Assembly (NCBI RefSeq): GCF_010093815.1
Contig: NW_022985550.1
Coordinates: 571,074-635,073, forward strand
Direction: 5' to 3'
Length of the DNA: 64,000 bases
From: Pseudovirgaria hyperparasitica
Lineage: Eukaryota; Ascomycota; Dothideomycetes; Acrospermales; Acrospermaceae
The position numbers and the translations under genes are program-made. Below, one piece after another: positions 3,185 to 38,907 of the stretch. The notes below the pieces were generated by a model. It made no database searches. It had not been told where the DNA came from and saw only the letters and a list, made by a program, of their open reading frames with translations. Positions within the stretch are counted from its first letter, which is position 1. Each line of letters opens with the position of its first letter.

Positions 3185-6100
3185 TCAATACGCCCCTTCT
3201 CTCTTCTCCCACTTCGTCAACGGCGCATTTTCCACCTTTCCAAACCCAGTCTGTATCACAGCCTGCGGCACCAACTCCACCTTCTCGACCTTGGCGCCAT
3301 CAGCCTCCAACGCCCAAAGCGACAGTCCAACCCAGTTCGTACCATGATAGTCCAGAATGCCCTCTGGCACAGGGAAGCTCCTCTGAGGTCCGACATTGTG
3401 CACATACTTGCCAAACTGCCAGCCGTTGACAAACAGCTGCACGCGATACGCAGACTCGGTTTCGTTGGTGAAGACAAACGACAAGGGGATGTCGTAGCCA
3501 TCTGGCATGTCTAGGTCAAAGGATGTGGAGAAGAATCCTACGCCGGCGGCAGAAATGCCTGTAGTGGGACCTTCACTGGTCTCCCAATCATCTGCAGGTG
3601 GTGCAGGGAGGTGGTATCCCTGACGTTCGACGAAAAGTGCGCCTTCATTGAGTGGACCACGGGCACGGTCAACGTAGTCTTCGCCTCCAAGATTACCAGT
3701 AATCTTCCATGTTACATCTGACTTATCATGACCAGATAGTGTATAGTCTAAGATGCCACGAGGGGTCTTCATTTCGTCCTCGCCAACAACGTAGTTCTCA
3801 TCGTATCCCATGTGGTCGATGACGACTGTCAGTACATAGTCTTGTCCTGAGCTAAGGTTGGGTAGAGTGTTTGTGCTTGTATAATTTGTGGTCACATCAT
3901 TGCCTTCCCAGGAGCCAACGAACTTGTCACCGAGCCAAATTGAGTGTCCGTATGCGGAGCCACCCTGTGTGTTTATCGTCAAGCTACTTTCTTGGCCATT
4001 TGCTTTGAAGTGGCCACGGAACACGAGACTGCCACTATGAAAGCTGTAGTCTCCAGCGAAAAGACTGGTAGGGGTGAGCTGTTCGTACTTATCATTATAA
4101 GTCTTCTCCAGGTCTGCATCGGGCCACGTCTCATCCGAGTAGTCTGCTTTGATCTCCGGAAGGCTATCAATGTACTTCCACTCCACAGCTCCAAGGTCTG
4201 GAATGCTTATGGTCGGCTTCTTGAACTCAGCGGTGGCAGTGACAACACCTGCATCATCTTGCTTGAAGTCGAGTGACTCTCCGTTGAATTGGAGATCTGT
4301 CAGCCCTTGAGGTGCACCGCCTATAATCTCAATGGGCGTTGTAACGTTCAGATCTCCGATCAGACTGAGTGTAGTTCCATCCGTGACTGCGGAACGGATG
4401 AGATATCCGGCTTTTACAATTAGAGAACCCTGGCCATAAGAAGCTGGTGTGGCAGGTACCCAGTAATTGTACGCCTCGTTACGATCTACCATTGTTTAGC
4501 ATGGGACTCTTATGGAATGGTAGAGAATGCGGACCTAAGAGGTATACATAGAGTCCTGATGGTGTCTTTACGACCTTCCGCTCACTTGAGGTAGCCCAAT
4601 TAAGGACGGTGTATCCTGTCTTTTGTGCGATGGCTACACCTGATCCCTCGATAGTCTCAGCGGAGCCGTACCCTTCGCTAGTATCTTCAATAGCAAGCTC
4701 GTGTTGCTCATTGGGGCCTCCATATACCACAAGAACAGTCTTTTCGTTGTACTTCTTCCATGTGTACACCTCGGCTGACGAATACACGATGTTGAAATCT
4801 CCGACTGAGTAATCGCTCACGTGGACTTTAGCGTCTCTACCGTTCAGAGACAGACTATTGTTCAATTGAGGAATAGTGATGTTACCATATGATGCAGTGG
4901 ACACGTGAAGCTTATAGCTGGTCGAATCGAGCGAGTTATACTTTGTGTGTCTACTGCATTATTAGAAACAGACAACATCACAGACACAAAAACACGTACC
5001 TTGTGAAATAGAACTTGGTGGTCTCCGTCGTCGCGGGGAAAACAATGATATCGGGAGAAGTTGTCCAGCTTGTGGAGCCGTTGATCCTATCTGCTACAAG
5101 GTATGCCGGAGATGAGTGCAGAAACGTGGCTTCGAGCTTGGCCTCGCTATATTTCTCACGGTTAACGAGACGCATCTCATCCACCACAGCACCATAGTCG
5201 TATGAAGTGTATCCACCTGGGTGACCAAGATTACCCCAGTTTGTTCCACCCCATGTCTGAAAACTGTCAGCACCGAGTCGCATCTACAACTTGGTCTCAC
5301 ACATACCATATAGATATTGAAGATGGTGACTCCGTATCCGTAGTTATTCTTGTAGAAGACACGCTCAAACTCTTGATTCAGAAGTGAAAGACACTTGTCG
5401 AAGCCATTTCCACCCCATGGGTCGAAAGCACCACCTTGAAACTGTACAAAGTCAGCCAATGGCTCTAGACGAGGATTGCAAGAAAGAATACCTCGACTAA
5501 TGAGAATGGAGTAGATGGAGCAAGCCGCAAATGTGTGTTCCACCAATCAGAAGGCAACTTGCCGTCCGGCCAGACGGTTGGATTTGCGCAGTCGAATCCG
5601 AGTGGGTAGCCGTCGTGGCCGTAGATGTCAATATCAGCTTCAGTGGTAGGAGTGATGTAGCCAGCTGGGTAAGCTTCGTTGCTGATGAAAGGAACCACGA
5701 TCCCTGCTTTTCGGTACTGGTCCTTGACTTGGTCCCAGTAGTTGAAGTTGGGAAACGGAAATCCATCAATGAAGGACTGGTATTCATTTTCGGGTTGTAA
5801 GAGAATGACTGGTCCACCATTGGTGATCTGGGCCTTGGCGACAATTTCACTGATTTTTTGAACGTAGCTGTCCTCGTCAGTGGCAATGTACTGGAACATA
5901 CGACGTGTCCTTACTTGTTTGTTGCCTCCATATACGCCGTGTCGTTGTCTCTCAACACACCTGGCACACGCTGGAGCCAGCCTGGAAAGCCACCACCACT
6001 GACCTCGGCGTTAATGTATGGACCAGGGCGCTATTATCTGGTCAGTGAACATGCTTACTTTGAGATGGCATGATCATACCGCAAGCACATAAATCCCAGC

Positions 6101-25613: not shown

Positions 25614-26589
25614 CTACGTGCCTAGTTGCCTGCCTGCCTGGCTTATGTTACACACCCTATCCACATATACACTACCTGGTAGGCATGGATTTCGTAGATG
25701 GTGTTGAATGGGCTTGGACATGTCACAGCTCTCGCAGTAGAAATCATTTTGGCGCTTGGGGATCATGTCAAAATACTTACACAATCTTTCAGGCTTCGTG
25801 ACATGATAGTGACCCTTAGCATGATGAAACTCTTCATATAACGCCAAGTATAATTAACATTGCATGCAAAAGAAGCGGAGGAGGCATGTGGGCGCAGTTT
25901 GATCTTCATGAGGAGGCCCTTGTGAAATTTCGCCCACATGCGCCTCTGATCCATGGTAGTCATGGAGGAAGAGGTTGTTCCCTTTGACCTCTCAGGCAAG
26001 ATGCTATAATGGCTTGCTCAAAAGCTACAAGTCACCCTCAGTGGGCATCCCATCATCGAGATTGCAGGACTCGTGGGCTCGGGTCTCCTGTTCCCTCTGG
26101 TGCGGTGGTTCGTCTGGCTGTGCGTCGCCGAAGTGCACGATGGTCGGTTACCAGTGATTGCTGCTGTAGTTGGCCAGGTAGGTGCTCGAACATGTCGCGT
26201 TCGTGGATGCGATATGCGGTCTCTACGATGATCATGATCGGGTATATATTGCTTGCTATCTCTGTGCGAGTCATGCAGTCTGGCGTCCCGATATGTACCT
26301 GCGCATGGAACGTTACAGTTCTCCATACGGTGTCATATAGCTGGTCCATCTGCTCGAGCTCGTCCTTGGATAGATGTTCCGTGCGGGCATAGCGCCTGTA
26401 CAGCTGCCTTAGAGGTTTGGCCGTCGTTGCCTCGAATCTTGGAGGAATCCAGTCATATTCCTCGTCCGTGGAGATCAAGCCTACTATCTCTAGGCTGATG
26501 TAGCCTGCATATAGCCTGTAGTGATGGGCTCGTTGTTCGGTGTTGACGCCCGACGGGTATTCGGCAGCCAACCAGACTGCTTTGGCACT
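25614..26589 (-). pseudogene. Remnant or fragment of an unknown gene beside the AT-rich block
   Basis: The stretch 26589-26053 is open on the minus strand and protein-like (AKAVWLAAEYPSGVNTEQ, YRLYAGYISLEIVGL, LRQLYRRYARTEHLSKDE). It has no ATG at its head; the open frame begins right where the sequence turns AT-rich, after an AG that could be an acceptor. Further minus-strand pieces at 25999-25860 (TMDQRRMWAKFHKG) and 25847-25614 (YFDMIPKRQNDFYCESCDMS) also read like protein and may be later exons. I do not recognise a family. Most likely a gene that lost its 5' part to the repeat block, or a gene whose 5' exons lie within it. Low certainty. Confidence 0.4.
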
Positions 26590-27690
26590 TCAAAGAATTA
26601 GTAGATTATAGTTAGTTCGAAATATATCATAAATTTACTATTACTTAGTTCGTAAGCTCTTCGCGGATAGAGTTATAGTAATTAAATATGTTATAAGCTT
26701 AGAGAATCTAGTAGGAATTAGTACTATATACTATGGATATTATATTATACCTAGTAGATTAGAATCATGTTATACTATACTAGCTATAATAAATATTACC
26801 TACGTAGATAAGGTAAACCGTAGTCGACGCTATATATTATAGTTATTATATTACATCTACTATATTAGAATCATGTTATACTATACTAGCTATAATAAAT
26901 TATACCTATGGAAATATAATAAACTATAGTAGACGGTGCTAGACATAGATATTACATCATACCTAGCATGTCGAAATCGGATTATACTATGCTAGCTACG
27001 ATAATTCTTACCTACATGAATATAATAAACCGTAGTAGACGCCGTATATTATATATAGCGTATTATACCTAGCATGTTAAAATCACGTCGTATCGTATTA
27101 GCTATGATAAATACTACCGACATAAATAAGATAAATCGTAGTAGACGGTGTATACTATATATATCGCGTCATATCTAGTATATCGCAATCACATCGTGTC
27201 GTATTAGCCACGATAAATCCTACCCACGTAACCACGACAAACCGCAGTAGACGCCATATACCACATCCATCTCATTATACCCAGCACCTCGAAACCACTT
27301 CATGTCGTGCTAGCCACGATAAATACCACCAACGCAATCACAACAAACCGTAGCGGACACTCCATGCTATATCTATCTAGCCATACCCAGCACCTCGAAA
27401 CCACTTCGTGTCGTACCAGCTACGATGAATTTTACCCACGCAACCACGGCAAACCGCAGCGGACAGTCCTACCACACCCATCTAACCATACCCAGCACGC
27501 CGAAACCACTTCATGTCCTGTTGCCCACGACAACTACCACCCACATAACCACCATAAATCACAGTAAACACCATACACAACACACACCTCATCACCCCAA
27601 ACCCCTCAAACCCCCATCACATCACACTGCCTACCCAAACCCCAACCCACACACCCACCCCAAAACCACACAATCACCAACAGCACACCA
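26590..27690. repeat. Tandem array, about 106-bp unit, with C-to-T gradient
   Basis: Eight units are clear, anchored by ATACCTAG/ATACCCAG-like words near 26747, 26852, 26959, 27065, 27171, 27277, 27383 and 27488; spacing is 105-107. Degenerate units fit the same spacing at about 26641 and 27594. Each unit also carries a TAGC(T/C)A(C/T)GATAAA-like core and a (T/C)AAACCG(T/C)AG core. On the plus strand, C rises and T falls from left to right while A stays near constant. No ORF of the array is credible. A decay process such as RIP, or copies of different age, would both fit. Confidence 0.85.
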
Positions 27691-27802
27691 AAATCAGCAT
27701 CATCGCAATCTGCATTCTCTCCTCTCAAGCTACATAGTCTAAGCCCCATCTCCCACCTCACCTCTCCCACATCCCCCCTGACCCCCCCTCAATCCCAAGG
27801 TC
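27691..27802. other. C-rich, G-poor tract after the array
   Basis: From about 27560 to 27802 the plus strand is dominated by C and A, with very few G. It runs straight into the 3' end of the next minus-strand gene, whose own last 200 bases are C-rich on the plus strand. Confidence 0.6.
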
Positions 27803-30670
27803 TCAAACATCCCTCACCCCCTCCACCTCCACCTCCCTCTCCTCCTCCAGCCCACCCTCCTCCCCACCCCCAACCCCAACATCAGCAGCCACCCGGCCGA
27901 CCATCCTCCGCATCGCCCTCGCGAACCGCGCACTGTCATGCCCCAAGATCCCCCGCCGCCGCGGCTCCCAGCTCTCATACAGGCTCTCGAAGAACCTGCG
28001 GACGGGGAAGCGCGCGGTGCCATAGCTAGCTGGCTGGGCGTTGTTGTCGTCGTCGTTGATCATGTCGGTATTGGCGACATCTACAGCGTCAGCCTCAAGA
28101 TCTTCTTCTGGGTCATCTTCCAATTCTTCTTCTTCTTCGAAACCATCCTCAAAAGCGAGTTCGAATCCAAACTCAGAACCCAAGTCAGGCTCGACACGCA
28201 CGGGCCCACACCCATCATCGTACTCGACATAATCGGGCAGAAAAGGCGTGTAGTGCGAGTGATGCGTCGGCACGAGAACAGGTCGCGCAAGCGCAGACGG
28301 GCAGGAACAAGAGCGATGGGGAAAAGGGACAAGGGGAGGGGAAGGAAAACAGGGAGTGCGATACTCACTCGCTGAGGCAGAGCTTGGTCTGCCGGTTTCG
28401 TTGTTGCCGTCTTCGCCTTCGTAGCCTGTGCCGTAGCCAGTGCCGTAGCCAGTGCCGTAGCCGGAACCATACCCAGTATCATAAGTAGCATCGTACCCAG
28501 CACCATACCCCCCCTCACCCGCAAGCACAGTATTCATCACAAACGACGGCGTAGGCGGCGCAACAGCCCGATACGGCATCCCCGTGCGCGCATCCAACGG
28601 CACATACAAGCGCATATTGCCCAGCATCGCAAGCTGGAAATTGCCGAGCGCGTCCTCGCGCGCACGCAGCGCCTGTCCCTCTGGCGAATCCGGGTCTGCG
28701 GCAGCGACAGCCTCAGCATCCCGATCGCGAAGAGCATGCACGTCGAGATCAGCAACACCATCAATACCTTCAACATCCGAAGCAGCACCGACAACAGGCG
28801 TGTTCTGCGGCCCAAGCGAATCGTAGAATGCCCAGAGCCCTTGCTCGCGGCGGTGCAGGGCGGCCTTGACAGTCGGCGTGTTGCCCGTGTCCCGACCGCA
28901 TGGCGAAAGCGTGATGCGGCCCGTGTACTGCCGGCGACAAGCAGGCGGACAGGCCCCAGGGGCAATCCGCCAGCGCTCATCCTCGCGGCCGCTATTATCA
29001 CGGACAGGCTTGACAAAAGGCAGATTAAAGGGCCGGGTAGCAGCCTGGTCGAGGAAGCGCCAGTCAGCCTGGATATGGGTCGTCTGGTTCCTATACATGA
29101 GGCCATGGAAGCCGGTGTCGATGTCGCGGACGACGAGGTCGAGCGCGATGTTGGCGTCGAGCAGTTCGCGCGCGAGCCAGTCGAGGCTGTCTGCGTTGGC
29201 GCGGGTGGCGACGCCGAGGGTGAGGCGGGCGCAGGGCAGGATCTTGCCGATGCAGACTTTTGGGCCGTAGCAGGCGCGGACGAGGAGGGTGAGGGCGTAC
29301 TGTACGCGGAAGGCGTTTTCGTGCTTGGTGTCGGTGAAGTCGATGGCGTAGGGGTCGTGTTTGTCGATGGGGTCGGGGACGAAGGGGTCGGTGCGTGGGA
29401 GCCAGAAGGTGAGGTGGCGGAGGTTGCAGAGCTTCATTTTCTCGTCGCAGGGACGGGCGGGAGTGTTGCTGCTGCTGCTGTTGCTGCTGTCCGAACCAAC
29501 GCGCGGCGGGATGGAGAGGGCGTCGAGGAAGCGGAGCATGTCGTGGTCGGCCCAGCCAAACTGGAAGGTGTTGAGGCGGTAGAACTGCGTGATGGCGTCG
29601 TAGCGAATCTCCCTGTTGACCTTCTGGAGACGGAGAAGCGCGGCAATGGGCGCGTACTCCTTGATGGGCCTGTCCTGGGAGCCCTCGCCGCCGTACATCG
29701 CGCTGCGGTTGGTCTCGTGAAACTCGCGGCTGCGGGCAGTCATGACTTCGTCGAAGAACTGGTAGGTTGACCGGTATTTCGGATCGGGGTCGGCGGACAT
29801 GGCGTTGACGATCTCGATATCGGAGCGGGGAAGGGACCTGGGGTGAATAGGGCGCTTGCCTGTCAATGGGATGCCCAGGATACGCAGCCAGACCTCAGCA
29901 GGAAGACGGGAGCGAAGAGTCGAGAGATCGACGGAGGGCTTCTCGATAAGCACAGGGTTCACGGCACGGGGTTCAGGAACCTCGTTCAGAGGACGTGGCT
30001 TCGGGAACAAGACATCGAATTCGCGGCCGTTGGAGTGCTGCAGCGTGAGCGTGTCGTAGTTGGCCAGAGGGTCTTCTTCTTCCTCGTCAGCCTCAGGCTC
30101 ACCTCTCCACCTGCGGAGGATCTCGAGACGGCGACGCTCATGTTGGCGCCAGCTTTCAGTTGACTCAATGGAGTCGGCAGACGAGACAGATGCGGCGTCG
30201 TCATTGTCGTTGACAGTCTCTGCAAAGCTACCTTGAGGACCTGCAACAGCGGTGTTAGTGGTCACGATCACATGAGTGCCGTTGAGGTCCTTACCGGTGC
30301 TAAGCTCAGGCTCAGACGCGATGATGGTTGAGAAGCTGCCTGGCTGACCTGGAAACGAGTTAGAGGTCAGACTCGACTTGAAAAACTCAACCCAGAAGCT
30401 CACCGTTTTCGGTCTCGTTGACGTTCAGAAGGTTGACAGCATCGACAAGACCATCATCTTCAGCTGTGCTCCATGTTAGCCTTCACAGTAATTGCCATGG
30501 CAGGTCAAACACTCACCGTTGGTGTTCTCGTTCACAGTCTCGGAGTCAACGTCAGCTTCAACTTCAGCGTCAGTGACCGCATTGTTGCACAAAACCGCGT
30601 CAACACCAGCGTCAAACAAAGGACCGACAGTGTCAAGCTTGTCAAGCGGTGCGTGTTCGTTGGAAGTCAT
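27803..30670 (-). CDS. Large unknown protein with acidic N-terminus and Gly-Tyr repeats
   Basis: Exons 30670-30517, 30463-30404, 30348-30295 and 30240-27803, all joined in phase 1, give 901 residues. The N-terminal 90 residues are acidic and encoded by mini exons. A central part (LPAEVWLRILGIPLTGKRPI, LLRLQKVNREIRYDAI, LRHLTFWLP) resembles F-box-like fungal proteins: LPAEVW is the usual F-box opening, and the rest is not a clear match. Then come a GTGYGTGYGTGY repeat, an acidic Glu/Asp tract and a C-terminal VRRFFESLYESWEPRR. A GTGAGT at the end of SASASE (near 28370) could be a donor, but the frame stays open and no good acceptor follows. Function unknown. Confidence 0.65.
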
Positions 30671-31389: not shown

Positions 31390-34300
31390 TTAGGTAGAGG
31401 CCTCCGTCATGGACCCAGCGGGCCGGCCGCCACCAACGAGCTCCATGATCTTTCCTGCAACAGCAGCGGGATAGCCGCGGGACAGACCCTCGTTGACGAT
31501 GGAGACAGCATTGGTACGGTCCTCGACGGCCATATATGCACGCGTCATGGCCTCGTAGGTGCTAGGCTCACGTTTGTCAGCGGGCACCATGTCGTAGATT
31601 GCCTTTGCCTTCTCAATGTCCTTGGCCATAGCCCAGCCATGGATGAGAGAGTTGGCAATGTATGGAGTCATCTCCACGCGGTGAGAGATCATACCACGGA
31701 GGATGGCGTCAGTCTCGGCGATCTTGTGGTTGGCGGCCATGGACTCGAACAATGCTTGATAAAGACATGCTTGAGGGCGGATGTCGGTCTCGTTGAGCAC
31801 CTCGTCGAAGAGCTTCCTTGCGCCCTCCATGTCATGCTGGACGCAGCCTTTTGCGTGGATCAGAGAAGAGTAATGTACAGCCTCTGGGGCAACACCAGAG
31901 CTGCGAATGTCGCGGAGAACGGCTTCGGCAGCGTCCATGTTGACAGGCTCGAGAGTCGCATAAGTGTCGATGAGGAGCTTGTATGTGTGTGTGGTTGGCT
32001 CAATGTGCTTGGCACGCATGCGCTCGTAGTAAGCCAACACCTTGCTGCGATCACGCTTGGTTGTCAGGAAGAATTGCATCATACTGTGGTAGGGTGCCGG
32101 GCGGGGCTTGTAGTTGGGCATGCTTTCCATCTCCTCAAAGAGTTCTTCCGCAAACTTCTCATCGCTGACGCGGCAGAGAGCATTGACGATCGTCCCGTAG
32201 GTGACACTGGTAGGACGAATACCAAGATTGCGCATCTCGGCAAAGTAGAACAAGCAGTCGTCGATACGTCGCGCCTTGCCGAGCTTGCCAATCAAGGCAT
32301 TGTATAGGAACGAGGACGGCTCAACACCCTCGGACTTTGCACGCAGAAAAATCTTGACAGCCTCGGTGGCCTCGTCAAACGTCTTTGTGGATTCCTTGAG
32401 GGTGGTGATGTATAGGCCAAAAGTGTTTGCAGAAGGGGCGGCGCCGAGGTCGAGAAGGTCTTGATGGTATTTTGCAGCTAGTTGGCGTTGGCCGGTCGTG
32501 AGGGAGGCAGCGACCATTGCATCTAGGATGGTGACCCATCCGTAGCGGACGATGCGGTACTGGGGCAGTAGTGGGACATCTTGTTTGGCGAGAGCGAGAA
32601 TGTCTTGGCAAAGGTTGAACCGATTCTCCTTGGCAGCGGCAGTGATCAACTTTGCGTAGGTGAAGAATCGTGGATGCCTGCCAGCTCGTCGGATGTTCTT
32701 GAACTTGGAGAGAGCCTCGTTGAGATGGGAGGAATACTCTCCGTACGTCTTCTCAAGAAGGTCCGTGATGGCGACAGAGCCCTTGTTGTCGGTAGTGGCG
32801 GCATAAGGGTCATGATTGTCTTCATACGGGGCGACAGGTACGGGAGCTGGCGGGGCTTGACCCATGATTGGGTAAGGTGCGGGACTGTAAGCAGGGACAG
32901 CGACAGGGTATCTGTATGTCTGCCATCGCTGAGAGATGTCAGGGCGATCAAGCTTCATCAGGGCTTTCTCTACCACGGTAGTGGTCGCGTTGTCGCAAGG
33001 CAGTCCAGTCATCATGACTACCTCGAGGAGATGAGCAAGGCGAGCAGAGTTCGCAATGTCCATGGTCGAAGAGTTCAGAAGCATACCGGCCTGCACCTGT
33101 ACAAGGAGGGAGAGATCGTCCCAGCCAAGTTGAGCGACGCCCTCAGGTCCAAGACCAGCGAGCAGGTGGCCGGCAACGGGAGCGACAAGGCCTCCGTTTT
33201 CAATCATGGACCACATGAGCTCCATACTGGCCTTCGCAGGAAGTACGATGCCACGCTTGATCATGAAGTGGCCCAAGACCTCAATGGCTTCGTCAATCTG
33301 CTCGACGACGTCAATCTTGGACTGGCTTGTCGAAGACTGCGAGTCTCGAATGCGGGCCATCATCTGCCTGGCCTGGCGCAGACCGCGTTCGGCCTGGCCA
33401 CTACCGATCAATGCAATCGCATGCATGGCAGTCGCCTCGATAAACTGTGGCTTGGTGCTGGCGACCTCAAGGACCTTCCAAAATCTGTCCGATTGTTCGA
33501 CGTTGCCAGCCCGGATGTTCATTGCACCCATAGCCATAGCGGGACCGCTGAGATCCACATCCTCCGGAAGGGCATCAAAGGCCTTGTTTGCAGCGTCGAT
33601 GTTGTCCACATCCGCAGCACGAATACAAATTGCAGCGAATGCCGTGACACGAGCCTGTGGGCTGAGGTATTGAGTGGACCAGGTCATGGCATGCTCGAAT
33701 GAGCCAACCTTGAGCCATTGTGGGACAAGCGCCTTCAAGCCGACTACATCGCGTAGGCGCACAAGTTGCTCATCCTGAACGAGACTGGCTTCAATCTTGT
33801 CCATGAATTCGGAGGCACCTTCGAGCCTGTCGCAGATGCTGTACGCCTTGATGAGAGACGCGTATACTTCGTTGTCTTTTCGGGAGATGGAGATCTTCCC
33901 GCTGTCATGTGATATGGCGAGGTTCTTGTACTCGTCGTAACACTCTACAGCACTGCGAAGATCGCCGGACTTGCCAAACGCCTGGATCATGGACACAAAC
34001 ATGTCAGGACTGGGCAAGACATTGTGGTTCTCCATATGTGCGAAGACGCGAACCATGTGTTCCATGTGGCCGGCTTCGGCGCAGGCAATGACCAACATGC
34101 GGTAAGTTCGCTCCGAGAATGCAAGTTTTGCCTTGGACGACGTTGCAGCATCGAAAACCTTGACAGCCATACCGACAGAGTCGTCTTCGCGAAGGATCTC
34201 GAAATCAGCCTCGTTTGATTCAAACATGAATTTTCCCGGCTCATCCATTCCGCCGTAGCGGGCGCGCTTCTCCTCGAGCGCTTGCTTGCCAGCAACCACA

Positions 34301-35211
34301 TCGAGCGACCGGACGGAAAGCACTTCAATCAAGGTGGCGTATGTAGACGAGTCTGGGGTAACGCGACGACGGAGCATGTCCGAGTAGACATCGAGGGCCT
34401 TGGGCACAACCTGATGCTTGGCCCTTGGGGTGTTGATGGTAGCGGTGAGGAGGATGTTGTAGGCCGAGGACGGTGGTTTGATGCCAGCCTTCAGCATGGC
34501 CTCAAACACGACGGAAATCTCTGCATACTGCTTGTTCTCGGCGAGTTGCACCAGGTGTTGGACGAATTGTTCGGCCTCGGATGAAGTGGAAGAGGGGGCA
34601 GTAGAGATTGATGCGGGAGATGCCGAGCGATCCGACGTGCTTTCTTGAACACTTCCAGGGGACTTGGGAGACGCGACAGAGATGGAATCGTCCTTCGATC
34701 TGGCCACCTCTTCCGCAATTGCTTCATCAACCCGAGCGAGAGCGGCAGCCTCTGCGCCATCATCACCAACCACCTTCCTGAAGTCATCGACAGCACTTGT
34801 ACTGTACGCACGATTTACACCGCTTCTGACAGCAACATCTTCGGGATCGATATCGTCGACATCTTCAACAGCAGTGGCCTTGGCCTTGGACGAGGGCGGT
34901 TCTGGCTTCCATTCTATCCTCTTTGTGAATTGAAACTGCGACCACTCTTTGTCATTGTGCTTCTGCCACGCGGCATAGTATGCGGCTAGACCAGAGTCGT
35001 TGTGATCATGGTGCGAGACCTTGACGCCGTGCTGATTGGTGGCAGGGTAGTTCTGGGCAGGACCAGACTTGAATCTGCTGGCAAAGTTGCCAAAGGAGTG
35101 GTTCTGGGAAGCGTATGAGGACTGCGAGGCCGCGACGACGGATTGAGCGTAACCGTGGGTGAAGGTCTTTGCGAGACTCTGGCGTGCTAGATGGAGTGTC
35201 TTAAACACCAT
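31390..35211 (-). CDS. Pentatricopeptide repeat (PPR) protein, probably mitochondrial
   Basis: One exon, 1,273 residues. The N-terminus (MVFKTLHLARQSLAKTF) is basic and amphipathic, as in mitochondrial targeting peptides. Many 35-residue helical pairs follow, e.g. SAYNILLTATINTPRAKHQ, SSTYATLIEVLSVRSLDV, TYRMLVIACAEAGHMEH, FVSMIQAFGKSGDLRSAVE, FLYNALIGKLGKARRIDD, SVTYGTIVNALCRVSDEK and THTYKLLIDTYATLEPVN. Fungal PPR proteins of this size act on mitochondrial mRNAs (translation or stability, as in the Pet309/Cya-5 group). I cannot tell which target this one has. A Ser-rich linker near residues 195-230 separates the N-terminal region from the repeats. Confidence 0.85.
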   Translation of the reverse strand: MVFKTLHLARQSLAKTFTHGYAQSVVAASQSSYASQNHSFGNFASRFKSGPAQNYPATNQHGVKVSHHDHNDSGLAAYYAAWQKHNDKEWSQFQFTKRIEWKPEPPSSKAKATAVEDVDDIDPEDVAVRSGVNRAYSTSAVDDFRKVVGDDGAEAAALARVDEAIAEEVARSKDDSISVASPKSPGSVQESTSDRSASPASISTAPSSTSSEAEQFVQHLVQLAENKQYAEISVVFEAMLKAGIKPPSSAYNILLTATINTPRAKHQVVPKALDVYSDMLRRRVTPDSSTYATLIEVLSVRSLDVVAGKQALEEKRARYGGMDEPGKFMFESNEADFEILREDDSVGMAVKVFDAATSSKAKLAFSERTYRMLVIACAEAGHMEHMVRVFAHMENHNVLPSPDMFVSMIQAFGKSGDLRSAVECYDEYKNLAISHDSGKISISRKDNEVYASLIKAYSICDRLEGASEFMDKIEASLVQDEQLVRLRDVVGLKALVPQWLKVGSFEHAMTWSTQYLSPQARVTAFAAICIRAADVDNIDAANKAFDALPEDVDLSGPAMAMGAMNIRAGNVEQSDRFWKVLEVASTKPQFIEATAMHAIALIGSGQAERGLRQARQMMARIRDSQSSTSQSKIDVVEQIDEAIEVLGHFMIKRGIVLPAKASMELMWSMIENGGLVAPVAGHLLAGLGPEGVAQLGWDDLSLLVQVQAGMLLNSSTMDIANSARLAHLLEVVMMTGLPCDNATTTVVEKALMKLDRPDISQRWQTYRYPVAVPAYSPAPYPIMGQAPPAPVPVAPYEDNHDPYAATTDNKGSVAITDLLEKTYGEYSSHLNEALSKFKNIRRAGRHPRFFTYAKLITAAAKENRFNLCQDILALAKQDVPLLPQYRIVRYGWVTILDAMVAASLTTGQRQLAAKYHQDLLDLGAAPSANTFGLYITTLKESTKTFDEATEAVKIFLRAKSEGVEPSSFLYNALIGKLGKARRIDDCLFYFAEMRNLGIRPTSVTYGTIVNALCRVSDEKFAEELFEEMESMPNYKPRPAPYHSMMQFFLTTKRDRSKVLAYYERMRAKHIEPTTHTYKLLIDTYATLEPVNMDAAEAVLRDIRSSGVAPEAVHYSSLIHAKGCVQHDMEGARKLFDEVLNETDIRPQACLYQALFESMAANHKIAETDAILRGMISHRVEMTPYIANSLIHGWAMAKDIEKAKAIYDMVPADKREPSTYEAMTRAYMAVEDRTNAVSIVNEGLSRGYPAAVAGKIMELVGGGRPAGSMTEAST

Positions 35212-36342: not shown

Positions 36343-38062
36343 ATGGCTCTCCCGCTCAAGGCTGTGTCTGCCCCCGGCAAGGTCTTGCTGGCAGGTGGCT
36401 ATCTGGTCCTGGATCGTGACTACACCGGCCTTGTCTTTGGCCTGGACGCCCGGATCCATGTTGTCATCCAGCCTCTGCCCACGCCGTCTGGCGTTTCTCT
36501 GCAGGAGATTATCGTCAAATCGCCGCAGTTCAAGGACGCCGTCTGGCAGTATGGCTACCGACAGGCAGCAGACGATGCCGGGGTCGAGGTGACGCAGCTG
36601 GACCCGTAAGTGGATTCCTGGTGTATTCTTCGAGACTCAATTGTGTTTCCTTTTTTTATTTTAATGTTATCTCATTGTTTACATTGCTCGTCTGAGACAC
36701 TCACTCCACCTCTGATCCCCCTTCCCTGATTGGCCAGCCAATAACTACAATATCAAAAAACCACAACACTCACTCACCACCCCCAGATCCCGCACCGGCA
36801 CCCTCAACCGCAACCCCTTTGTCGAAACCACCCTCGCCTACGCCCTCTCCTACATCACCGCCCTCACCCACGCCCCCATCCCCGCCTCCACCATCACCAT
36901 CCTCGCCGACACAGCCTACTACTCCAACACCCCCTCGCCCTCGCCCAACAACCCATCCTCCCAATTCGCAAACTTCGCCGTCCCGCTCCACTCCGCACAC
37001 AAGACCGGCCTCGGCTCCTCCGCCGCCCTCGTCACCTCCCTAACCGCCGCCCTCCTCGCCCACTACCTCCCGCCCACCTCCTTCTCCCTCTCCCCCTCCC
37101 CCTCCACCAACACCGACAGCAACACCACCACCAACACAACCAACAAAAGCAAAACCCACCTCCACAACCTCGCCCAAGCCGCCCACTGCGCCGCTCAAGG
37201 CAAAATCGGCTCCGGCTTCGACATCGCCTCCGCCGTCCACGGCTCCGCCCTCTACCGCCGCTTCTCCCCGTCCATCCTCGCCCAAACAACCTCTTCCACC
37301 CCCGGCTCCACCCCCGGCTTCGCACTCACCCTCACATCCCTCGTCCAGGACACAGCAGCACCCCCAAAATGGGACACCCAAATCACCAAATCCGCCATCT
37401 CCATCCCTGCCGGGCTCCGCCTCCTCATGGCGGATGTAGACTGCGGATCCCAGACGCCCGGGATGGTCAGGCAAGTCCTCGCGTGGCGCGCTGCGAATCC
37501 CGGTGCCGCAAATGAGATATACAACGCGCTGCAAGCCGCCAACGAAGCCCTCGCCGCCGAACTCGTCTCTCTCTCCTCCTCCCCCCAAAACCAATCCCAA
37601 TCCCAACGGCAGGACTACACCCCCCTCGCATCCCACCTCGCCACAATCCGCACCCATCTCCGCGCCCTCACCGCCGCCGCAAACGTGCCCATCGAGCCAG
37701 TCGAGCAAACACGCCTTCTAGACACGATTTGTGCGGTTGAGGGCGTGGTCGGTGGGGTTGTGCCGGGTGCGGGCGGGTATGATGCTGTTGCTGTGTTGGT
37801 GGAGGATCGGGAGGATGTTGTTGGGCGGTTGGGTGCGGTTTTGGGGGGGTATGCTGCGGGGGATGCTGGGGGGGATGAGGGGGATGGGGAGGGGGGGGAT
37901 GGGAAGGAGGGGGACAAGGAGGGAGAGGAGAGGGATGGGAAGGAAGGAGAGGGGGAGAAAGGGGTGAAGATTGGGAGGGTGGGGATATTGCCTGTGAGAG
38001 AGGAGATGGAGGGGGTTAGGGAGGAGGGGGTGGGGAGGTATGAGGGGTGGGTTGTGGTTTAG
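36343..38062 (+). CDS. ERG8: Phosphomevalonate kinase
   Basis: Exons 36343-36605 and 36787-38062 (phase 2, 181-nt intron, long for this window) give 512 residues. The GHMP kinase fold is plain: SAPGKVLLAGGYLVLD at the start, TGLGSSAALVTSL as the ATP-binding loop, GKIGSGFDIASAVHGS and DVDCGSQTPGMV. The enzyme turns mevalonate-5-phosphate into the diphosphate in the sterol/isoprenoid pathway. Compared with yeast Erg8 (451 residues) this one is expanded by a Ser/Thr/Asn linker after the GLGSSAA motif and by an Asp/Glu/Gly-rich tract (about residues 435-485) before a conserved-looking C-terminal strand. Base use flips from C-rich to G-rich near 37735. Confidence 0.93.
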
Positions 38063-38907
38063 GTGTGTTTGTGTGTGTGTTGATGTGTGTTGGTGGGGCT
38101 GCGGAAGGATGGAGGATTGGAACGGAACGGAGGGTGAAAATTCAACATTTACGTGTGCATATACATACATACATGCAGTCAGTGTGCTTCAAGGTTACGC
38201 CTAGAACCACGTCACCTCAAGTCACATCACATAACATCGTCACAACTCACTCGACTCACTTCTCACTCGAACTCACTACTCACTCGACTCACATCCTTAT
38301 TCACATACTCAAACAAGAGACAAAAAGCCACAAAAAAGAAGAAGAAGAACCCAATAATGTGTTTGTGTGTTTGTGTACGTGTGTGTGTAAACATCTATAT
38401 CGTCACTGTCGTTACCCTTTACCCTTTACCCAACCTTTACCGTCATCTCATGTTTCCTGTTTCATGTCCATGTTCAATGTTCATGTTCAATGTAGTAAGA
38501 AACCAAAAAAAAAGAAGAACTCCGGCTACGCTTTGCTTTCCTTTCTCTGCTTGCTTGCTCGCTCGCATGCTTGCTTTGACGTTAGCCATGCCATGCCATG
38601 CCATGCCATGCCTTGCCATACCATCATCCATCGAGCTTAAGCGTAATCCACATGCTCGCCTTTGTTTGTGTACGTTTATGTCTGTATGTGTGTGTGTGGG
38701 CCCATTACATGCGACAGCCTCACGGGAGTAGAACGAAAAGAACCAGATAATCTTCTTAATGCATCCAGAGAGTAGTACACGTCAGCCCATCATTCCACGT
38801 CTCCCAAGCCAGTCCCTCTCCCACCCTTACCCGAAAAGAAAAAATAAACTCCGGCCGTCAGAGAAAAAGAGAGAAGAAAAAAACAGTGACCAAATCAAGC
38901 AGTCAAA
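38063..38907. other. Convergent intergenic region, low complexity
   Basis: GT tracts near 38060-38090 and 38350-38395, ACTCACT repeats near 38245-38295 and CATGC repeats near 38585-38615. ORFs here are read-throughs of these tracts. Confidence 0.45.

Follow-up and report, generated by a model that had tools for sequence, protein, structure and literature searches.

A tandem array in the genome of the Dothideomycete fungus Pseudovirgaria hyperparasitica raises the question of whether a repeat can lose cytosine from one DNA strand only and, where it seems to do so, which process leaves such a trace. The array lies in a window of 64,000 nucleotides (contig NW_022985550.1, positions 571,074 to 635,073), to whose numbering the coordinates below refer. 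The original prediction, made from the letters of the window, described a 106-bp array at 26590 to 27690 in which neighbouring units exchange C for T in an ordered way on one strand, with A about level and G likewise until it drops at the right end, and named as possible causes a RIP-like deamination biased to one strand and spreading from the AT-rich side, growth of the array at one end, or deamination of a displaced single strand. The analysis reported here finds the array and its ordered C/T change to be real and the pattern largely explained by known processes; the array most likely preserves, in graded form, a natural record of RIP.

The array and its neighbourhood

The predicted period was recovered by TRF on the window (period 106, score 404), and the self-identity at offset 106 reached 0.656, whereas offsets 40-179 without 103-109 averaged 0.284 (sd 0.031, max 0.363). 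The locus thus presents RIP with a duplicated target. Eight units of 106 bp are in register between 26733 and 27579 and are followed by a diverged ninth at 27580-27685, the unit starts being 26733, 26839, 26945, 27051, 27157, 27263, 27369 (a unit of 105 bp), 27474 and 27580. A single gap of 1 bp is needed across the nine aligned units, which fits point mutation as the source of their differences. The alignment returned nine related units, not unrelated low-complexity sequence, with a C/T change that is ordered by position. The predicted extent was too wide on the left: clear register runs only from about 26700-26710 to about 27685, and the part from 26590 to about 26700 is not detectably made of units, the purine/pyrimidine identity at offset 106 being 0.88 at 26710 but already down to 0.56 at 26680. 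In a 60-bp profile the dinucleotides are ordinary again left of about 26590. A genome search in which very common words and simple repeats were skipped found no second match to the array or its left flank.

Transversions set the right-hand end apart. The transversion distances from unit 1 to units 2-9 are 12, 6, 6, 7, 11, 13, 14 and 31; unit 9 is the most remote of all (25-31), and units 6 and 7 form the closest pair (4). Unit 9 is identical to unit 8 at 63/106 positions and differs at 43/106, and since 25 of these differences are transversions, the C-richness of the right end does not come from C/T exchange alone.

The array is flanked by two minus-strand open reading frames (Table 1). The 866-aa ORF has no Pfam match and no homolog at E<=0.001 among 7991 candidates scored, a weak negative as the candidates were capped at this number and chosen by words from its first 500 residues, and the 172-aa ORF has no homolog at E<=0.01 among 32 candidates. 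Further along the window, a 1273-aa ORF on the minus strand (31390-35211) carries pentatricopeptide repeats (PPR_2, E=4e-42). Imbalances of CpA and TpG also occur elsewhere in the window, with 36 CpA and 1 TpG at 36901-37200 and 1 CpA and 39 TpG at 37801-38100; both probably mark low-complexity stretches, rich in G or C, close to genes.

Table 1. Features in and around the 106-bp array, in window coordinates
Feature	Coordinates	Strand	Description
172-aa orphan ORF	26053..26571	-	To the left of the array; doubtful as a gene
Left flank	26590..26709	+	RIP-like, TpA-rich; not clearly a repeat unit
Units 1-4	26733..27156	+	CpA to TpA near complete; CpA and TpG both scarce
Unit 5	27157..27262	+	Transition, about half of CpA converted (15/26; model rate 0.55)
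Units 6-8	27263..27579	+	Low conversion; T marks private to single units
Unit 9	27580..27685	+	Diverged, C/A-rich; T before A 1/27
Right flank	27686..27890	+	C-rich, G-poor; reaches the end of the minus-strand ORF; without clear array register
866-aa long ORF	27803..30403	-	Mechanical ORF call, start and introns provisional; end adjoins the array

A gradient of C and T in the CpA context

On the plus strand, C rises over units 1-9 (14, 13, 20, 16, 31, 38, 38, 43 and 56) and T falls (37, 38, 33, 33, 25, 20, 20, 16 and 8), and the counts behind the original prediction were thus right in substance. When unit 1 is compared in turn with units 6, 7 and 8, T>C changes number 21, 21 and 24 versus 1, 1 and 3 for C>T, and A>G changes 6, 7 and 6 versus 6, 4 and 8 for G>A. 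The exchange depends on the base that follows. Before A, the share of T among pyrimidines is 27/28, 27/30, 21/25, 23/26, 15/26, 7/23, 8/20 and 7/27 in units 1-8 (chi-square p=4e-12), and 23 of the 40320 possible unit orders are as extreme, whereas pyrimidines before C, G and T pooled do not differ between these units (p=0.66). Among these other contexts, YpC alone follows suit, and weakly (p=0.017); YpG (p=0.55) and YpT (p=0.37) show no trend. We also compared units 1-4 with units 6-8 column by column, using only columns in which these units have neither transversions nor gaps. Of the 18 columns where A or A/G follows, 17 have T in the left units and 1 has it in the right units; where a pyrimidine follows, the numbers are 4 and 3, and in mixed columns 5 and 0. 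The C-to-T change accordingly prefers CpA, as RIP does.

The marks also carry information on the order of events. Fourteen columns read YpA throughout units 6-8; CCC occurs in 5 of them, CTC in 4, TCC in 2, CCT in 2 and TTT in 1, and the agreement among the three units is 26, compared with 25.6 expected by chance. The T marks are thus private to single right-hand units, which indicates that RIP acted after the array had formed. Units 1-4 are saturated, 10/14 columns reading TTTT, and the order of marks cannot be read there. In the core of the array the level of RIP is not obviously tied to the divergence of the units: among units 1-7, unit 2 has the largest transversion distances to most others, yet its RIP rate is high.

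One strand or two

The level A and G of the original prediction were borne out up to unit 7, where the counts of G (15, 12, 15, 17, 15, 13, 17, 8 and 2 over the nine units) and of A (40, 43, 38, 40, 35, 35, 30, 39 and 40) change little, but two opposite trends lie beneath. After T, which is the RIP context of the minus strand, the share of A drops from 98/109 in units 1-4 to 22/30 in units 6-8 (Fisher p=0.03); tested for a trend across units 1-8, on few sites, it gives p=0.06. After C, A rises rightward (p=3e-4), at least partly as a side effect of the loss of CpA on the left. The same comparison of units 1-4 with units 6-8 by purine columns gives A on the left in 8 and on the right in 2 columns after T or T/C, A on the right in all 4 columns after only C or only purines, and 3 left and 2 right where the neighbours are mixed. 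The columns with CpG in at least two of the eight units read TA in 20/40 cells of units 1-4 versus 1/30 cells of units 6-8, and going from CG to TA requires a change on each strand. The first of these two changes must fall outside the CpA context, a point against the RIP reading. In units 6-8 these columns read CA in 8/30 and TG in 0/30 cells, three of the eight CA falling in one column. Such a mark, confined to the minus strand, is not expected from plain CpA RIP; it may reflect a real minus-strand event or form part of the drift to C/A-rich sequence.

The two strands were compared in a maximum-likelihood model of the eight units, which were treated as independent, with the observed neighbours as context. 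Equal rates on both strands gave lnL -673.54 with 10 parameters, a constant minus strand -677.47 with 11, a constant offset between the strands -673.42 with 11, and free rates -670.90 with 18. In column bootstraps the graded minus strand was preferred in 161/200 and the constant one in 39/200. According to the same model, the unit before RIP would have held 41 C, 32 A, 20 G and 13 T, with 14 CpA and 3 TpG. RIP of both strands would look plus-stranded in this array because the ancestral unit offered many CpA and few TpG targets, and the one-strand look is probably in large part an effect of targets and composition, for which we see moderate support. The strict one-strand bias in the original prediction finds little support, as the minus strand moves the same way in its RIP context and the strand-equal model is the better one in most bootstraps. 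The array shows how target composition could disguise a two-strand process as a one-stranded one, a trap for claims of strand bias.

A RIP with real strand bias, acting on one strand per round, with plus-strand rounds reaching only the left part and minus-strand rounds the whole array, nevertheless deserves consideration. In N. crassa, some 91.9% of the clusters of mutations consist of C>T changes only or of G>A changes only (PMC7296669). The free-rate estimates for the minus strand fall unevenly over units 1-8 (0.99, 0.85, 0.77, 0.66, 0.80, 0.08, 0.63 and 0.31), and the CA cells of the right-hand CpG columns point the same way. We still regard this bias as rather unlikely, since the model with a constant minus strand is worse despite its extra parameter, the share of A after T drops, and the numbers of CpA and TpG targets already predict the one-strand look. 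Unlikely, too, is a directional and partly strand-dependent RIP, whose loading or recognition would start at the left end of the array and decay over about 1 kb; most plus-strand rounds would stop around unit 5, and the marks on the minus strand would extend further right. If true, the polarity of RIP and the length of its tracts could be read directly from this natural array, whose units are far shorter than the classical limit.

The remaining explanations fare worse. Growth at one end, with units ordered by age and by the RIP rounds they went through, would agree with transversion distances that increase along the array, but the T marks of units 6-8, at chance agreement, were not copied from marked neighbours, and the least RIPed unit, unit 9, is the most diverged by transversions; we consider this part of the original prediction very improbable. 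A slope of composition from AT-rich to C-rich sequence, combined with ordinary drift and no RIP at all, could draw on the C-rich tract that continues to the right of the array, on the transversions that make up most of the difference of unit 9, and on the YpC trend; in units 1-8, however, the pyrimidines before A differ between units and those in the other contexts pooled do not, which makes it highly implausible. The base before the target influences the known APOBEC enzymes, whereas the following A matters here, and we give hardly any credence to deamination of a displaced single strand, be it in an R-loop or by an APOBEC-like enzyme. In its favour are the G-richness of the right flank on the minus strand and the position of the array, 3' of an ORF on that strand, but an R-loop from that ORF should displace the minus strand and not the strand that loses C, and deamination of this kind is not needed to explain the pattern.

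Probable RIP in this genome and RIP in other fungi

The genome assembly (35.0 Mb, 59 contigs) was searched for the C5 methylase family, which gave four matches at three gene places, on contigs C4, C20 and C5. The gene on C4, which we take to be DIM-2-like, is a 1047-aa open frame with DUF7893 and a methylase domain; its match to BAH falls short of the cut-off. The RID-like gene on C20 was read as two ORFs of 431 and 219 aa; its at least 120 matches include one named rid1 (P0013, 32% identity) and one named DmtA (P0100), and the RID-like ORF matches a 647-aa protein of Pseudovirgaria hyperparasitica itself with 99% identity across 95% of the query. Judged by similarity, the genome thus appears to encode a RID and/or DIM-2 methyltransferase. 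RIP-like DNA is present beyond the array. We sampled 20 stretches of 10 kb at the starts of contigs C40-C59, a non-random choice, and 17 of them had readable 500-bp windows. The RIP index exceeded 0.5 in at least 16/18 windows in five of these 17 stretches, in 4, 12 and 9 of 38 windows in three more, and in none or one window in the other nine. One sampled stretch, C52 1-10000, is RIP-like and has a residual excess of CpA (155 CpA, 41 TpG) and a 238-bp tandem array of 3.8 copies at 4195-5068; the next 10 kb are balanced (131 CpA and 138 TpG) and hold arrays of 2.0-2.8 copies. The 238-bp array was considered as a second case of a gradient and rejected, as the surrounding DNA is nearly devoid of CpA and TpG and the array is thus unable to show one.

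The part of the original prediction that invoked a RIP-like deamination weakening away from the AT-rich side can be retained in view of the CpA context, the methyltransferase genes and the RIP-like DNA elsewhere. We therefore favour graded RIP of both strands and consider this account as a whole likely. A C-rich 106-bp unit would have multiplied into nine or more tandem copies, forming an array whose internal homology RIP would recognise during sexual cycles, converting CpA to TpA on both strands. Conversion would have been nearly complete in units 1-4, have come down through unit 5 and have stayed low in units 6-8, beside the end of the minus-strand ORF. The RID/DIM-2 enzymes would presumably be responsible and would hit both strands alike. 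As for the excess at the left end, we can offer guesses: RIP or heterochromatin could start at the left, or selection could act against RIP near the right-hand ORF. At 106 bp the unit is shorter than the minimum of 400 bp given for N. crassa (PMC10294615), which speaks against this account, but the whole array measures about 0.95 kb and the threshold of this species may differ. The array suggests that RIP reaches 106-bp tandem units in this fungus, and its alignable units serve as internal replicates for the study of mutation context.

In one open-licence library we found no described case of a graded RIP tandem array or of RIP strand bias in tandem repeats and, by title and abstract start, no RIP work among the papers listed for this fungus; for RIP with strand asymmetry a single paper came up, which deals with mismatch repair. 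Published precedents exist both for RIP that is graded and for RIP clusters on a single strand. RIP of Zymoseptoria tritici prefers CpA, with 240/242 new mutations in a duplicated region in this context (PMC10294615), and Leptosphaeria maculans has one-directional RIP gradients beside repeats (PMC2973834); in Z. tritici, by contrast, no leakage of RIP next to transposons was observed (PMC10294615). CpA preference, strand clusters and RIP gradients, as published, can together account for the main features of this array. With RIP of Ascomycota in general the array shares the change of CpA to TpA, the scarcity of indels, the repeated nature of the DNA and a genome with RID-like and DIM-2-like genes; it differs in its short 106-bp tandem unit and in a conversion graded from unit to unit. 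As in L. maculans (PMC2973834), the level of RIP falls steadily one way over a short distance, but in that fungus it spills over from repeats into single-copy sequence, whereas here the gradient lies inside the array and no other repeat was found at its left. The strand-coherent clusters of N. crassa (PMC7296669) likewise give C-to-T changes a one-stranded look; they arise in a single generation, whereas the pattern in P. hyperparasitica has accumulated, with both strands changed in the left units.
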